The notes below the pieces were generated by a model that had not been told where the DNA came from, did no database searches, and was given only the letters and a program-made list of their open reading frames with translations. Positions 4,441 through 12,115 of a DNA stretch of 15,264 nucleotides are shown here, one piece after another (position 1 is the first letter of the stretch; each line of letters opens with the position of its first letter). The translations under genes and the position numbers were made by a program. This stretch comes from Verrucomicrobiota bacterium (GTDB lineage Bacteria; Verrucomicrobiota; Verrucomicrobiia; Verrucomicrobiales; DEV007): positions 1 to 15,264 of the forward strand of contig JAHDCN010000038.1 of assembly GCA_020629815.1 (NCBI GenBank). The letters are read 5' to 3'.

Positions 4441-4477
4441 ATAACAGCCATTGCGCGCAGTTGTATTGGGCCGTTAT
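4441..4477. promoter_or_regulatory. Imperfect inverted repeat before the cytochrome gene, candidate operator
   Basis: ATAACAGCC (4441-4449) and GGCCGTTAT (4469-4477) are inverted copies matching at 8 of 9 positions, separated by 19 bases. They occupy most of the short gap between the XylR-type regulator and the cytochrome gene. This could be an operator for the regulator or a hairpin at the end of the regulator transcript. It has no T-tract, so an intrinsic terminator is less likely. Confidence 0.3.
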
Positions 4478-4486
4478 CCTAGAAAC

Positions 4487-5554
4487 ATGAACAGGATGAT
4501 TCTTGGCACAACTCTCAGTTTCGTCATCGCGGCATCAAGTCTGGCGGATGAAGTGGCGAGTTATCTGACGTTCGACAATCAGCCGCTCGGCTCAGAGGAA
4601 AAACCTTTGGTGGTGCGCACCTATTTGCCCAGTCTGGATCTCGATACGGTGGTGCTTTCCAACCACGGAACCGGGAAGAAGACGCCGCGTTATTCCGCCA
4701 AAACCGGTCTGCTGTCCTCCAGTTCCGAGGATCAACCGATCGCCGGTATACCTGCAGGGATCGCGGTGAATATCGGCAAAAAGCTGTCCTACGTTTGGGA
4801 TACCACGGAATGCCGACTGCTCTATGCCTGGAACAACGGCTTTCTCGATATGGAGTCCTACTGGGGCAGCCCGGAGCAAGGCTCACGAAAGAAAAATGAC
4901 TATGTGCCGCGCTTGATTGGCAATCTGTTTTACCAGGCTAAGGGGGCTCATCCCCTGATGATCAACGGCAAGCCGGTGCAGAATATCCAATACAAAGGCC
5001 ACCGTCGCGTCGATGGATTGCCCGTCTTTACCTATCTCGCCGACGGACACCCCATTGAGACGGAAATCGAGGCGGGAGACAGTGCCCAGACTCTGCGATT
5101 GATATTCCGGAGCCCCGGCCCCGATCCATTGAAACTCGATTTCCAGGCTGCGAATACCGCTTTCGAAATCGCATCAAAGGACGCTGGCGCTCTGAAGGTT
5201 TTGGTTCGCCCCAATGCCAGCGGCTCCTTCACCGGTTACAAAAAGGAAGTCATCACCATCGATACCGCGAATGCTGAGGCAGGCAAAAAGCTCTATACCA
5301 GTTTCGGTTGCTCCGCTTGCCACACGACCGACGGCAGCCGGAATCACGGCCCAAGTTTTCAGGGCTTAAGCGGAGCAATGCGAGAGTTGCTCGATGGGAC
5401 CAAAGTCAAAGCCGACGCTGACTATCTTGCGGAATCGATCAAAAATCCGAATGCGAAACACATCAAAGGATTTCCGGCAGGGATGATGCCCGCCTACCCG
5501 CTCAATGACAAGCAGATCGAATCTCTGGTTCTGTACATTCAAACCCTCAAGTAA
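4487..5554 (+). CDS. Secreted monoheme c-type cytochrome with large N-terminal domain of unknown function
   Basis: A 355-residue exported protein. The start is taken at ATG 4487, not the in-frame TTG at 4451, because it gives a normal signal peptide (MNRMILGTTLSFVIAASSLA, cleavage before DE). Residues ~21-260 hold a domain I associate with PVC cytochrome/propeller proteins, with motifs such as IAVNIGKKLSYVWDTTECRLLYAWNNGF (given in two overlapping parts: IAVNIGKKLSYVWD and TTECRLLYAWNNGF) and YVPRLIGNLFYQAKGAHPL. Residues ~265-355 are a class I cytochrome c domain with heme motif CSACH (C275, C278, H279) and a C-terminal Met ligand in AGMMPAYPL (M334 likely). It should carry electrons in the periplasm. 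The next gene starts 9 bp downstream and encodes a beta-propeller protein, so the two probably form an electron-transfer pair; in related organisms these domains can be parts of a single polypeptide. No strong ribosome site is visible. Confidence 0.87.
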   Translation: MNRMILGTTLSFVIAASSLADEVASYLTFDNQPLGSEEKPLVVRTYLPSLDLDTVVLSNHGTGKKTPRYSAKTGLLSSSSEDQPIAGIPAGIAVNIGKKLSYVWDTTECRLLYAWNNGFLDMESYWGSPEQGSRKKNDYVPRLIGNLFYQAKGAHPLMINGKPVQNIQYKGHRRVDGLPVFTYLADGHPIETEIEAGDSAQTLRLIFRSPGPDPLKLDFQAANTAFEIASKDAGALKVLVRPNASGSFTGYKKEVITIDTANAEAGKKLYTSFGCSACHTTDGSRNHGPSFQGLSGAMRELLDGTKVKADADYLAESIKNPNAKHIKGFPAGMMPAYPLNDKQIESLVLYIQTLK

Positions 5555-5563
5555 ACGAAAAAG

Positions 5564-8539
5564 ATGAAGGTTACTAAAGGATACATTTCGTCACTGCTTC
5601 GACAAAAGCCCGGAGCACCCAAAGTCTTGACTCAACCCTGTACACTCATGGACCAAACAGGGTATGCTCTGATTTTTTCCCTGCTTCTGTGCGCTGTTTC
5701 ACCCAACGCAGCAGCAGAGGAAAGCTACACCGTCGACACGATTGATTTCCCAAAAGACATGCCCGTTGAAGTCGGTGCGATCGATTTCGATACAAAGGGA
5801 GTTTTGTATCTGGCGATCCGCAGGGGGGATATTCTGACCGCGACTCCACAAGCCGATCCAGCCGAGTTCAAATGGAAACATTTCGCCAGCGGTTTTCACA
5901 ATCCCTGTGGGATCCACATCGTGAAACCCGGGCACATCATTATCAGCCAAATGGCGGAGCTGACCGAGGTGATCGATACCGACAACGATGGCATCGCCGA
6001 TACCTACAACGCCCTGTCCACCGATTTCGGGCTGAGCGGAAACTACCACGAGACCATGGATATTTGCCCCGATGGAAACGGTGGGCTTTACCTCGCTCCG
6101 GGAACCGCATCTCATAACGGGCCGACTTTCACTACACCTCGCGGCCGGTTTCTCGATGGCGGACGCCTGGGCCGAAACTACTCATCGGTCGAATGGCGCG
6201 GCTGGGTGCTGCACTGGCAGCCTGGCAAAGAGTTGATACCGGTGTCTTCCGGCTACCGCATGCACAACGGTATCGAGCGTTCACCGAAAGGCGACATTTG
6301 GTGTGGAGACAATCAGGGCGACTGGCGTTCGTCGTCACCCGTCTATCATGTGACGCCGGACAGCTTTGCCGGTCACCCATCGAGCCTGGTGTGGGACGAG
6401 CGGTTCGCAGGTGTCGAGAATCCACTCTATCTGCCACGAATCCTTCTCGATGATCTGTGGAACAAACCCGCCTTCCGATTGCCGCGCAGCATGATGAATT
6501 CCTGCGCGGAACCAGCCTTCATTCCGGAAGACGGCAGCTTTGGTCCTTTCGAAGGTCAGATGCTGATCCCGGATCAATCCGGTGACCGCATCGTGCGCTG
6601 CATGCCCGAATGGGTCGATGGCAACTACCAGGGAGCTGCGACACTATTCTATAACCAAAACGGCCTGCTGCGCGGCAACAACCGACTCGCTTTCTCGCCC
6701 GACGGCTCGACTCTTTATGTCGGTCAGACCGGCCGAGGTTGGGGCAAACTCAGCGAAGGACTGCAGCGGATCTGCTACCAGGGCAACCACTCGCTGGAAG
6801 TGGCCAACTGCCAACTCAAGCCGGATGGTTTCGACGTCACCTTTACCAAACCGGTTGATCAACCGGAGACCATCCGCATCGAGCGCTTCCGATATGATTA
6901 CGGCTATCAATATGGCGGCGACGAGCTGGATAAAGAGGAGATCAAACTCAGTTCTTTCAAAGCCGCCGACGGCGTGATTCGAATCAAAATAGCCGACGGC
7001 GAATTGCTGCCAAACTACGTCTATCGCTTCCACCTCAATGACGTCGTCGCAACCGATGGCACTCCTTTTCAAAACCTGCTCGAATACACCCTGAATCGCC
7101 TGGTTCGACCGCAGTCAGACACGCAGGTAACGATCACGGAACAGGATGGCAAATTCACCGTAAAGATGGGTGACGAACTGTTTACCGAATATCACACCGC
7201 CGGTTTCTCCAATCCCATCCTTTATCCTATCCAAAACGAGGCAGGCACCGGCATGACACGCGATTGGCCGGTGAACCCGAAAGGCCGCGACGGAGAGCAG
7301 CAGGATCACCCTCACCATCGGTCCCTGTTTATCGGCCACGAAAGCGTAAACGGCATCGACTTTTGGCACGACACCCGTCCGACGGATGGAACCATCGAGC
7401 ACGCCCGGACCATCGAGACCCGCAGTGGTGAAGACCGGGCTTTGATCCGCACCTTCAATCTATGGAAAGATCCGGACGGTAAAGTTCAGTGTACGGACAC
7501 CAGAGAAATGCAATTCGGGCTGATCGACGGCGTCCGCTACCTCGACCTGGAACTGAACATCCACGCCAGCCATGGGCCCGTGACCTTTGGCGAGAAGAAA
7601 GACGGCGTGATCGGCCTGCGCACTCATCCTGATCTGCGCCTGAAACCCGCGCCCGGCAAAGGCGTCGAAGAGGTCTTCGGTCACGCTGCGAACAGCGAAG
7701 GAGTCACCGGCGGTGACGTCTGGGGAAAGAAAGCCGACTGGGTTCACTACCACGGAAAAATCGACGGCAAGGACAGCGGAATCGCGATCCTGTCGCACCC
7801 GGGAAATGCCCGTTCCAAAACCTGGTGGCACGCGCGCGACTACGGCCTCGTGGCGGCCAATCCTTTCGGCCCGGTTCAGAGTGGTGGCGACGGTGAGTTG
7901 GTCCTGCCCGAAGGCGAAACTTTCACCATGCGTTACCGGTTCCTGTTCCACGATAAGAAACCGGAAGAAGCCGACATCGGGAAACAATTCACTCACTACG
8001 CCAAACAACCGCTCTATCCCCGAACCGTCTGTTTACCGATTCCGGAAGCAGGCGCTGAGAAAGAGATCGCAATCCCGAAAAACGTCGATCCGCGAGGCGA
8101 TGTGCTTTCGAAAGTGACCCGAACTGTTGATGGCAAAAAAGCCAAATCGCCCGAGCTGAAAATTCATGGCTTTGTGGAAGGGGAGAAGATTTACCGCGAC
8201 CGGGATTTTACTTATTCCAAGATTCCGGACTATCTGAGAGGTGGAGATTTATTAATCACTTTCAACAACGACAAGAAAAGGCAGGTTGCTGCCTACGAAG
8301 TCACCGTTTCGCAGCCGGGCATGCTCCACGTCCTGGTCGACTCCCGCGCCGAAGAATCCATGAAGTGGCTCTCCGACCAGACTGGAGATTTGAAATTCTC
8401 CCCATCAAAAGACACCGTGAAAACCAGTGGTGACTTCACCTTCAAGCTGTTCACGGCCGAAGTCGATCCCGGCGTCTACACCCTGGGCGATCAATTCGGC
8501 GGCAGCTTCTATGGAGTGGTGGGAGTGAATCGGGATTAA
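5564..8539 (+). CDS. Secreted three-part protein: PVC-type beta-propeller, DUF6807 (PmoA-like) domain, C-terminal beta-sandwich-like domain
   Basis: A 991-residue exported protein. Residues ~55-505 match the membrane-bound-dehydrogenase-like beta-propeller of PVC bacteria (NPCGIHIV, DTDNDGIAD near 138, GNYHETMDICPDGNGGLYLA, YRMHNGIERSPKGDIWCGDN). Residues ~521-800 match DUF6807/PF14100, once named PmoA, with the His cluster QDHPHHRSLFIGH (580-592) and VNGIDFWHD. Residues ~845-991 are a beta-rich domain of the kind that accompanies secreted PVC carbohydrate enzymes (AYEVTVSQPGMLHVLVDSR). Substrate and chemistry are not known; a sugar- or alcohol-oxidising role coupled to the upstream cytochrome is inference. 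The start is uncertain: ATG 5564 gives a 28-residue extension before MDQTGYALIFSLLLCAVSPN, which resembles a signal peptide, so ATG 5648 is a real alternative. An inverted repeat flanks that second ATG. Stop TAA; a perfect palindrome follows 32 bp later. Confidence 0.88.
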   Translation: MKVTKGYISSLLRQKPGAPKVLTQPCTLMDQTGYALIFSLLLCAVSPNAAAEESYTVDTIDFPKDMPVEVGAIDFDTKGVLYLAIRRGDILTATPQADPAEFKWKHFASGFHNPCGIHIVKPGHIIISQMAELTEVIDTDNDGIADTYNALSTDFGLSGNYHETMDICPDGNGGLYLAPGTASHNGPTFTTPRGRFLDGGRLGRNYSSVEWRGWVLHWQPGKELIPVSSGYRMHNGIERSPKGDIWCGDNQGDWRSSSPVYHVTPDSFAGHPSSLVWDERFAGVENPLYLPRILLDDLWNKPAFRLPRSMMNSCAEPAFIPEDGSFGPFEGQMLIPDQSGDRIVRCMPEWVDGNYQGAATLFYNQNGLLRGNNRLAFSPDGSTLYVGQTGRGWGKLSEGLQRICYQGNHSLEVANCQLKPDGFDVTFTKPVDQPETIRIERFRYDYGYQYGGDELDKEEIKLSSFKAADGVIRIKIADGELLPNYVYRFHLNDVVATDGTPFQNLLEYTLNRLVRPQSDTQVTITEQDGKFTVKMGDELFTEYHTAGFSNPILYPIQNEAGTGMTRDWPVNPKGRDGEQQDHPHHRSLFIGHESVNGIDFWHDTRPTDGTIEHARTIETRSGEDRALIRTFNLWKDPDGKVQCTDTREMQFGLIDGVRYLDLELNIHASHGPVTFGEKKDGVIGLRTHPDLRLKPAPGKGVEEVFGHAANSEGVTGGDVWGKKADWVHYHGKIDGKDSGIAILSHPGNARSKTWWHARDYGLVAANPFGPVQSGGDGELVLPEGETFTMRYRFLFHDKKPEEADIGKQFTHYAKQPLYPRTVCLPIPEAGAEKEIAIPKNVDPRGDVLSKVTRTVDGKKAKSPELKIHGFVEGEKIYRDRDFTYSKIPDYLRGGDLLITFNNDKKRQVAAYEVTVSQPGMLHVLVDSRAEESMKWLSDQTGDLKFSPSKDTVKTSGDFTFKLFTAEVDPGVYTLGDQFGGSFYGVVGVNRD
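5634..5664. repeat. Inverted repeat flanking the alternative start codon of the propeller gene
   Basis: ACCCTGT (5635-5641) and ACAGGGT (5657-5663) are perfect inverted copies with 15 bases between, and the in-frame ATG at 5648 lies in the loop. The 8-mer AACCCTGT/ACAGGGTT also appears in both arms of the palindrome after this gene (8572-8602). It may be a regulatory hairpin around an initiation codon, or coincidence. Confidence 0.3.
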
Positions 8540-8571: not shown

Positions 8572-8602
8572 AACAGGGTTAGGTCACTGACCTAACCCTG
8601 TT
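8572..8602. repeat. Perfect 31-bp palindrome, operator or bidirectional terminator-like hairpin
   Basis: AACAGGGTTAGGTCA (8572-8586), one central base (8587), then its exact reverse complement (8588-8602). It lies 32 bp after the propeller/DUF6807 gene and about 100 bp before the amine oxidase start. As RNA it would form a long stem, but no T-tract follows on the plus strand, so an intrinsic terminator is possible but atypical. The near-zero spacer also fits a dimeric protein binding site or a mobile palindromic repeat. Confidence 0.75.
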
Positions 8603-8702
8603 AAGTCATGATTTGGCGGTGCTGATTCGACGAGATTCTTCGTAAATGCTCAGAGGAACATTGACTCTGTTCTCTCAGAGCGACAACTTCTCTCCTATTG
8701 GA

Positions 8703-9935
8703 ATGAACCGACGAACAAGTTTAGCAACGATGACAGCCGGATTTCTGCCCTGGGCCGCCGATGGTTCCGAAACACATCAGCTCAAAGGCTACCTCCGCAC
8801 CAATTGGAGCAAAGACCCGTATTCCTTCGGTTCTTATTCCTATGTCGCAAAAGGATCGAGGCAAAAGGACCGCGGAATCATTGAAGAGCCGATCGAGAAT
8901 CGAATCTTCTTCGCCGGTGAGGCGATGCATCCCAAATACAACAGCAGTGTTCATGCTGCCTATGAATCGGGATTACGAACAGCTGCGAAACTGGCTGAGG
9001 TCTCTACTTCCGGTCATGTCGTTATTATCGGTGCAGGGATCAGTGGTCTGGCTGCGGCTCAACAACTGACCGAACAGGGACGGAAGGTTACCGTGTTGGA
9101 GGCCCGCGACCGGATTGGGGGACGCATCTGGACAGATCGCAGTCTCGGGGCTGCGGTCGATCTCGGTGCAAGCTGGATTCATGGAACCGAGGGCAATCCA
9201 CTAATGGATTTGTGCGATCAGGCCGAGATCAAGCGAGTGGAGACGATCGAGAATTTTGTCTTCCGGGGAAAAGACGGAAGGGAGATTCCGGAGAAAGAGG
9301 CACCAAAGTGGCTTCTGGAAGAAGTATCCATCCAGCAAACGGCTGGCGCCGATGCCAAACAGCTGAACTTATTGCACTACGGATTGGATGCGTTGTTTCG
9401 GGGAGCCAATGTTGGCTATGACGGGCCCGACGTGAAATTCCCCAAAGGCTACGACCAGATTTTTTCCCAACTGAGGGGCGATTACCAAACCCGGCTTTCT
9501 TCAAAAACCGAACGCATTGCTTTGAAGGAAAACAGTGTCGAAATCTCAATCGAAAAGCAGGGCGCTGAGAAATTTGATCAGGTCATCGTCACCGTTCCAT
9601 TGGGCGTGTTGAAAAAAGGAACCATCAAATTCGATCCGCCGCTTTCGAAGAAGAAAACTCAGTCGATCGACAAGCTGGGCATGGGCACACTGGATAAACT
9701 CTATCTCCTTTTCGAAGAACCTTTCTGGGATGATAAGTTTACCTGGATTGGGACGCCGGAAAATGGCCAGCCGCAAGGTCAGTTCAATACCTGGCTGAAT
9801 CTACATCGCTATTTGAACGTGCCGATCCTGATGGCCTTCAATGGAGGTTCATCTGCCCTTGCATTAGCAGATTTACCGGACGAAAAATTGATTGGAATGG
9901 CTCTCCAAACGCTGAAAGCAGCGTATCCCATATAG
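8703..9935 (+). CDS. Flavin amine oxidase with circularly permuted segment order and Tat-like signal
   Basis: A 410-residue protein of the FAD-dependent amine (monoamine/polyamine) oxidase family with its parts out of order. Residues 1-20 ([20 protein letters not shown]) look like a Tat signal. Residues ~28-98 are the segment normally at the C-terminus: [28 protein letters not shown] (67-74) and [13 protein letters not shown] (82-94). Only then comes the normal N-terminal start: [18 protein letters not shown] (105-122), [11 protein letters not shown] (131-141), LGASWIHG (154-161), then VTVPLGVL and the substrate-domain segment [16 protein letters not shown] with the conserved Lys (K332). The ORF stops after [11 protein letters not shown], where the moved segment would ordinarily follow. 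Overall length is near normal and all inspected FAD motifs are present. ATG 8703 is preferred over an in-frame ATG at 8646 because it begins the signal. It may be functional, since both FAD-domain ends pack together in this fold, or a scrambled remnant of a tandem duplication. Confidence 0.85.
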
Positions 9936-10537: not shown

Positions 10538-10610
10538 GAATTCGGCGTTTGCTTTTTTTGTCCAAAAATCCGGCGTATCGTGGACCTGAAAAGAAAACTA
10601 CGATTCGTTG

Positions 10611-11141
10611 ATGGCGAGCCCGGACCAAAATGACAATCACGAACGCTTCACGCGGCTGCTCCTGGAGAGTGAGCCGGTGATGCTGCGTTCGATTCTGGTC
10701 GCTGTTCCCAACCTGGCCGATGCCCGCGAGATTATGCAGGAAACGGCGGTGGCGCTGTGGCGTCAGTTCGAATCCTATGATCCGCAGCGACCATTTACTA
10801 ACTGGGCGATGGGATTCTCGCGAATCGAAACGCGCCGTTTTCTGGCCCGCTCACAACGGCGGGCTCAGCTCAATGTGAAGGCGATCGAAGTGCTCGAGCA
10901 GGAGATGGAAGGTAACGACGATTTTGCGCAGGTGCTGGAGCGACATCTGGCGACCTGCCTGGGCAAGCTGACCGACAAACAGCGTCGTCTCGTGCAAGGC
11001 TACTATCACGAAAACCGGAGCCCGCAGTGGCTGTCTGAACGCGAAGGCCGAACTGTGGAAGCAGTTTACAAAGCGATCCAGCGTGCGCGACGTGATCTGC
11101 AAACGTGCATTGAACGACAAATGCGAAAGGAATTTTCATGA
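10611..11141 (+). CDS. ECF-like sigma-70 family sigma factor (Rhodopirellula/Verrucomicrobium type)
   Basis: A 176-residue RNA polymerase sigma factor. Region 2 spans about residues 8-85, with ADAREIMQETAVALWRQF (37-54) and FTNWAMGFSRIETRRFLAR (62-80). Region 4 spans about 113-170, with LGKLTDKQRRLVQGYYHE and the helix-turn-helix SPQWLSEREGRTVEAVYKAI (137-156). Regions 1.1 and 3 are absent, as in extracytoplasmic-function sigma factors. ATG 10611 is chosen; a TTG lies one codon upstream. The stop codon overlaps the next ATG (ATGA at 11138-11141), so the sigma factor and the membrane protein after it are translationally coupled, the usual arrangement of sigma and anti-sigma. Target promoters are unknown; the nearby sulfatase and beta-helix genes are candidates by proximity only. 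Confidence 0.93.
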   Translation: MASPDQNDNHERFTRLLLESEPVMLRSILVAVPNLADAREIMQETAVALWRQFESYDPQRPFTNWAMGFSRIETRRFLARSQRRAQLNVKAIEVLEQEMEGNDDFAQVLERHLATCLGKLTDKQRRLVQGYYHENRSPQWLSEREGRTVEAVYKAIQRARRDLQTCIERQMRKEFS

Positions 11142-12115
11142 ACGAATCAATCGACTGGGACGAGCTGATCCAGAAGCATATTGATGGACTGACAAGCGAA
11201 GCGGAGGCGGAGTCGCTTTCCGACGAAATTGTCGGGAACCCAGAGGTGCGTGCCAGGTATCTGAAGGCGACTCAGATACACGGTGCCTTGACCGAAGAAG
11301 CGTCCTTGATGGAGCTGGAAGGCGAGGTCGATGAGCCGACTGAATCTTCGGTACGGACCGGCGCCATTCATCGAATGGGTTGGCCGCAACAATTAGCAGC
11401 TGCTTTGGTGGGTGGCGCCTTCTTCGGAATTATCGGTGTCGGCGTCGCCTGGGCTGTTGGATCTCCAAAGTCGGAGGCGAGAGCGTTGCCGGTTGCGAAT
11501 GGCAATTTCGAAAGCTTTGTCGGCAAAACGAAAATCGGCTTTCCCAAAATTTTCGGCGAGTGGAGCGGTGACCCTGCGGAGGTAATTAAAAGGCCGGACG
11601 GGACACAGCTATTACGCTTTCTGGAAACAGCTAATGTGACTGGCAAGCCGAATGGGGGCGCAGCAGCCTGTAATCTTTTTCAACTGGTCGACTTGTCGTC
11701 TCTGCAACAGGAGTGGGCGACTGATGACATCGACACCCGGGTGACACTGGAGTTGTCAGCTACGTTCCTTCGGGAGGCAGCTCCAACGGATAAGAAAACG
11801 GCCAGATCGAAAGCGACTTGCACCATCCAACTCTATCAGGCACCGCCGGAATCGATCGGCCAAAAGTGGCCAAATGTCATTGCCGATGCTCTTGCGGTCG
11901 GGAACAGGAGGCTCCTTCTGAAGCCGAACGGTGAATCAGAAACCATTTCTGCCTCCTGTATCCTCGATCCGGATGCCAATCTGGCTCTGATCTCGGTCAA
12001 TGTGAATGCCATGACGGCATCCACGACCCCGACGCGTTTGGGCGGTTGGTATGCCGATGACGTAAAGTTGACGCTGATCAAGCAACCGACATTGCCGGTT
12101 CGGTTTGTGAAGTAG
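11138..12115 (+). CDS. Membrane anti-sigma-like protein with exported sensor domain
   Basis: A 325-residue single-pass membrane protein. The cytoplasmic residues 1-80 are helical and acidic, with a pattern seen in PVC anti-sigma/FecR-like proteins (LIQKHIDGLTSEAEAESLSD, then NPEVRARYLKATQIHGAL). No HxxxCxxC zinc motif is present. One membrane helix lies at about 85-108 (LAAALVGGAFFGIIGVGVAW). The exported residues ~117-325 start with VANGNFESF and contain GEWSGDPAEVI and GTQLLRFLETANV, which resemble galactose-binding-like beta-sandwich modules. It probably holds the upstream sigma factor until an external signal arrives; the ATGA overlap supports partnership. The sensor-domain assignment is by pattern and is weaker than the anti-sigma assignment. 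The sulfatase on the opposite strand converges toward its 3' end. Confidence 0.75.
   Translation: MNESIDWDELIQKHIDGLTSEAEAESLSDEIVGNPEVRARYLKATQIHGALTEEASLMELEGEVDEPTESSVRTGAIHRMGWPQQLAAALVGGAFFGIIGVGVAWAVGSPKSEARALPVANGNFESFVGKTKIGFPKIFGEWSGDPAEVIKRPDGTQLLRFLETANVTGKPNGGAAACNLFQLVDLSSLQQEWATDDIDTRVTLELSATFLREAAPTDKKTARSKATCTIQLYQAPPESIGQKWPNVIADALAVGNRRLLLKPNGESETISASCILDPDANLALISVNVNAMTASTTPTRLGGWYADDVKLTLIKQPTLPVRFVK

Follow-up and report, generated by a model that had tools for sequence, protein, structure and literature searches.

Can a flavin amine oxidase work when the C-terminal segment that binds flavin adenine dinucleotide (FAD) is made before the rest of the enzyme? This question is raised by a plus-strand gene at 8703-9935 of a 15,264-nucleotide stretch (hereafter, the window) of contig JAHDCN010000038.1 from a Verrucomicrobiota bacterium (assembly GCA_020629815.1). 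The gene lies in an intact open reading frame (ORF) of 429 amino acids (8646-9935, plus strand), and the ATG at 8703, giving 410 residues, is likely its start, as in a preliminary description of this DNA, because the homologues open with an MxRR twin-arginine translocation (Tat)-like stretch. We applied the PF01593 profile (cut-off, 19.8 bits) to the ORF stretch by stretch and found three matches above the cut-off: profile positions 374-442 at 8787-8993 (55.3 bits, 1.3e-14), 1-71 at 9039-9254 (84.2 bits, 1.1e-23) and 193-369 at 9420-9935 (85.1 bits, 5.9e-24). Profile positions 72-192 are without a match in the ORF, and the total of 223.1 bits against the cut-off of 19.8 places the protein in the superfamily. 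The usual order of the family, with the N-terminal Rossmann unit first and the FAD tail last, is not that of the window protein: the tail stands before the core, far beyond chance, with the cut falling between profile positions 369 and 374, and the protein is therefore classed as a permuted variant of PF01593. This order bears out the circular permutation claimed in the preliminary description, whose quoted motifs were located where it had placed them. Besides PF01593, only general Rossmann families and no other domain matched the protein in a Pfam search, and no NCBIfam model reached its own cut-off among the best 25 of 69 matches. The gene product is very probably a functional enzyme of the flavin amine oxidase superfamily and a natural circular permutant. 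More broadly, we put at roughly 65% the probability that the permuted proteins go back to one ancient event, from which arose a stable subfamily of exported flavin amine oxidases, spanning several phyla, with the C-terminal FAD segment first. These would be natural permutants of the fold of LSD1 and the polyamine oxidases, passed between phyla by horizontal transfer and hidden by family annotation blind to order.

The permuted order is a trait of the family, an old subfamily in several phyla and not a local event, which goes beyond the preliminary account. A protein search from the window scored 8000 candidates, 5724 of them with E ≤ 0.001, and the best 120, including the window's own protein, were aligned (alignment A1); the 119 others align with 89-98% of the query at 49-63% identity. 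In an order test with tail, core and Rossmann hidden Markov models (HMMs) cut from this alignment, all 120 had the tail first. With a Cryobacterium protein (genome G1122) as the query, 119 of the 120 listed matches were permuted (P0282, of 321 residues, was unclassed), and with L145, a canonical relative from genome G818, none of the 120 listed were permuted, 119 being canonical and P0210 unclassed. Among the matches listed, at least 238 other proteins share the permuted order. It occurs in Nitratireductor sp. XY-223 (on a 1.06 Mb contig) and Cochlodiniinecator piscidefendens (0.54 Mb), also in Cryobacterium sinapicolor, C. breve and Actinoplanes lutulentus, and in other genomes on contigs of up to 4.6 Mb.

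We then counted the order in genome samples, each including its centre genome; for the phylum, Nitratireductor-class, Cochlodiniinecator-family and cyanobacterial samples at most 4 to 6 first-look candidates were scored per genome, so these counts may be low. In the sample of the window's phylum, one genome of 288, the window's own, had a match to A1 at 1e-40. Among 74 genomes of the family to which the window belongs, the best match beyond the window's own genome (1.7e-29) covered query residues 249-424 only, and the best loci (L007-L014) have the canonical order. The class of Nitratireductor yielded four matching genomes of 385 (A1, 1e-60), three of them permuted, and in the fourth (G494) the core precedes the tail, which lies in the next ORF. 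Fifteen of 295 genomes in the family of Cochlodiniinecator matched A1, 14 permuted and one (G818) canonical. In the family of Cryobacterium, 63 of 150 genomes matched the C. sinapicolor protein at 1e-20 and in 46 a single collinear match spanned the query from residue ≤67 to residue ≥485; all 20 of these 46 that were examined are permuted. A cyanobacterium-centred class sample, which held no positive control, gave 0 of 388 at 1e-60 (A1), and two permuted relatives (P0004 and P0116) bear cyanobacterial source names. Plasmids gave no tblastn match at 1e-30, and viral contigs gave two relatives, both canonical. A scan of genome contigs returned at least 80 loci with unspecific patterns and is no census; three of them (L041, L050 and L051) had wide query ranges, yet the canonical order.

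These homologues also bear on whether two halves of ordinary amine oxidase genes were misjoined in a fragmented genome bin, an error for which the preliminary description had allowed. With 599 contigs and a completeness of 69%, the genome is fragmented, and the phylum sample holds no other match, as a misjoin would have it. However, the order is shared by the other listed proteins and stands on the long contigs described above, and we regard the chance of an artefact as close to negligible; assembly error is refuted for the family because the permuted order recurs in named strains (L036, L037). The contig itself carries a perfect 31-base palindrome, AACAGGGTTAGGTCA-C-TGACCTAACCCTGTT, at 8572-8602, between a DUF6807 gene and the amine oxidase gene and 100 bases before the ATG at 8703. 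This palindrome is found at 52 places in the same genome with ≤3 mismatches (control, 0), as a family of repeats like repetitive extragenic palindromic (REP) elements, which makes it most likely that the contig is part of this genome.

The cofactor motifs and the conserved lysine are present in the open frame, as previously described. Alignment A1 has 36 invariant columns, and the window gene keeps all 36. They include R51, T52, W54, D57, G62, F89, A90, G91, E92 and A105 in the tail, with A90, G91 and E92 forming the C-terminal AGE motif, as well as G129, G131 and G134 of the Rossmann GxGxxG motif and G158, G159 and R160 of the GGR motif. Lys351 (codon at 9696-9698) is invariant in 120 of 120 rows and aligns, by sequence alone, with the lysine of LSD1 and LSD2 that we take to be the LSD1 active-site lysine near flavin N5; the tail motifs also align with LSD1, at what are presumably its substrate-cage residues. 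Along the plus strand, the Tat-like signal segment (8703-8780; low model confidence) is followed by the displaced C-terminal FAD segment (8781-8993), a short linker region from the C-terminal helix to the first Rossmann strand (8994-9014), the N-terminal FAD Rossmann unit (9015-9254) and the remainder of the catalytic core (9255-9932), which stops where the moved segment would normally start. Compared with the other rows, the window protein averages 67% identity for the tail, 65% for the Rossmann unit and 52% for the core; the signal averages 33% and the linker (residues 115-122) 10%. In the predicted structure, a helix (102-119), four linking residues and a Rossmann strand (124-128) have a mean predicted local distance difference test (pLDDT) score of 96-97 in these blocks, which supports the earlier suggestion that the linker of the permuted protein is short and structurally sensible.

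Several observations weigh against a working subfamily of single origin. In the first tree, built from 58 rows (34 of 112 dereplicated permuted rows and all 24 canonical ones), the free topology required three changes of order, and a free tree of 46 rows, from which 12 long or far rows including the permuted L043 had been removed, still required two. The nearest relative of the window gene is 63% identical, too distant for a ratio of nonsynonymous to synonymous substitution rates (dN/dS). The MNRR stretch of the window protein, read from the motif alone, is a weak and atypical Tat-like signal. Finally, the gene neighbourhoods disagree on a substrate, with no neighbour shared at a constant place.

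The tree results could mean that the same loop was cut independently two or more times, in the Proteobacterial/window group, in Microbacteriaceae and perhaps in the Actinoplanes protein L043. The backbone forks are without resolution, and the lineages belong to different phyla, which would suit such a history. On the other hand, the cut and the linker are nearly identical throughout, with a gap of 2-4 residues between the tail and Rossmann profile matches in 324 of the 330 permuted rows (counting repeats), and the approximately unbiased (AU) test does not reject one clade: keeping all permuted rows together gives p-AU 0.148 for the 58-row tree, and with 46 rows the one-clade topology gains 9.0 in log-likelihood (p-AU 0.728). 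We therefore regard independent origins as a minor, though real, prospect and suggest that the permuted order probably arose once. The preliminary description had proposed a tandem duplication as the route. Since a Tat-like stretch occurs in both orders (RR or RK plus a hydrophobic stretch, our own rule, in 239 of 276 permuted and 109 of 141 canonical distinct rows), the sequences would fit duplication of a Tat-core-tail gene followed by loss of the first core and the last tail; the search of relatives proposed there recovered the same order and no intermediate: a scan of 200 loci and 120 proteins gave no two-tailed ORF of ≥150 residues. In five permuted proteins of the Microbacteriaceae type (L042, L044, L198, P0276 and P0297), a Cys follows the Tat-like hydrophobic stretch (LTAC/LAAC), which suggests that they may be lipoproteins.

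The preliminary description left it undecided whether the gene encodes a working enzyme or is a decaying remnant; a remnant would be a rearranged gene that now evolves neutrally. That the window gene is the sole permuted gene among the 288 genomes of the phylum sample, that its Tat stretch is weak and that it has no near relative for dN/dS would be in keeping with decay. Against this, the frame is open with its invariant columns kept, the tail is closer to the homologues than the core, and permuted relatives of another lineage are under purifying selection: the dN/dS check proposed earlier gave values of 0.10-0.28 for five distinct pairs of permuted genes, every one from the family's Microbacteriaceae side (eight lines, four being one locus pair). 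A remnant is thus very unlikely, and a working enzyme is favored because of the same-order homologues, the 36 invariant columns and these ratios. The window genome probably gained the gene horizontally, as suggested by the phylum count together with the absence of the gene beside the related gene pair of a congeneric genome (see below).

According to sequence and model, the C-terminal segment, comprising a FAD-contacting strand, the FFAGE motif and the C-terminal helix, comes first, directly after the Tat-like signal; the helix joins the first Rossmann strand through about four residues, and the chain stops where the tail normally begins. For the predicted working enzyme, we infer catalysis, substrate, electron acceptor and export as follows. 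FAD may be bound in the cytoplasm and the folded enzyme then exported by Tat. An amine, perhaps a polyamine-like secondary one, would donate a hydride to the flavin, which O2 could reoxidise close to Lys351; the products would be an imine or aldehyde and H2O2.

Alternatively, the protein could be an amine dehydrogenase with cytochrome c as its electron acceptor, in the manner of NicA2, and not an oxidase. Its Tat-like signal points that way, as does the second gene upstream (4451-5554, same strand), which has a cytochrome c domain, and such enzymes may use a cytochrome encoded elsewhere, according to PMC12224317. However, this cytochrome c gene adjoins the DUF6807 gene, which separates it from the amine oxidase gene, and in G024, a genome of the same genus, the two stay together (56% and 64% identical) without the amine oxidase gene; 14 kb around the G024 pair contained no permuted gene and no DUF420 gene (tblastn, 1e-5). 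No cytochrome c neighbour recurred at 40 permuted loci: ORFs with CxxCH, cytochrome candidates by this motif, lay within 2.5 kb at eight of them and were mutually different. An exported oxidase is likelier, because flavin amine oxidases with a Tat signal and no nearby cytochrome c gene react rapidly with O2, as stated in the accessible portion of PMC12224317, and because no cytochrome neighbour recurs; a cytochrome c-coupled dehydrogenase is unlikely and was set aside on the latter ground.

By fold and sequence, the closest solved proteins are LSD1/LSD2, spermine oxidase and N1-acetylpolyamine oxidase. The displaced tail lies beyond the reach of structure searches bound to chain order. LSD1 and LSD2 have extra domains (SWIRM in both, a tower in LSD1) and a nuclear location. 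In the amine oxidase domain of LSD1/LSD2 (KDM1A/KDM1B) the tail follows the core, whereas the window protein puts the tail ahead of the core and carries a Tat-like signal. Its permuted order, the lack of any other domain match and an ORF of 429 residues place it outside LSD1/LSD2. Spermine oxidase, N1-acetylpolyamine oxidase, maize polyamine oxidase and Fms1 likewise have the tail last, and characterised substrates; their likeness to the window protein is one of fold and sequence kinship only. Canonical bacterial proteins of the 'flavin monoamine oxidase family' (368-504 residues, including L007-L014) share PF01593, and many are Tat-like; they are among the nearest sampled unpermuted kin in the trees, whose backbone is without resolution, and differ in having the tail at the C-terminus (119 of the 120 listed). 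NicA2/Pnao-type amine dehydrogenases, as described in PMC12224317, belong to the same superfamily as the window protein and have a Tat signal, to which its Tat-like stretch may correspond, but are paired with a cytochrome c gene, a pair that does not recur at the 40 permuted loci and is not adjacent in the window.

Flavin amine oxidases such as monoamine oxidase (MAO), LSD1 and polyamine oxidases are drug targets and biocatalysts, and the fold is usually described with one chain order. If true, a natural permutant under selection would imply that a junction between the two FAD-binding ends is possible, show engineers a loop where a cut is tolerated, and make the duplication-and-loss route testable in a real gene tree; the permuted order is a class of variant hidden by annotation from family hits. 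Titles and abstract starts of the matches listed in open-licence PubMed Central (PMC) literature, a scope outside which preprints and most subscription papers lie, mentioned no circularly permuted flavin amine oxidase; in the parts of the texts available, 'amine oxidase' is absent from PMC6957218 and PMC2213659, and 'permut' from PMC12224317.

In the neighbour survey, simple gene picking recovered the permuted gene in 33 of 40 loci. Alphaproteobacterial loci had no neighbour at a constant place, only small clusters of five and three loci with varying positions, and 13 loci of Microbacteriaceae have a member of one ORF family next to the permuted gene, in most cases on the other strand; a member of this family (L183:5317-5973) is membrane-like without a Pfam match. 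At one Alphaproteobacterial locus (L165:3841-5909), glutamine-synthetase-type and glutamine amidotransferase genes adjoin the permuted gene on the same strand. This pair presumably resembles gamma-glutamyl polyamine pathways, and a single locus decides nothing on the substrate. In the window, 4451-8539 holds the cytochrome c domain gene and then the large DUF6807 gene, whose product also shows a weak PVC-type match at its N-terminus, and 10608-12115 holds a gene for a sigma-70-like factor and, directly after it, one whose product has a hydrophobic stretch and matches nothing in Pfam.
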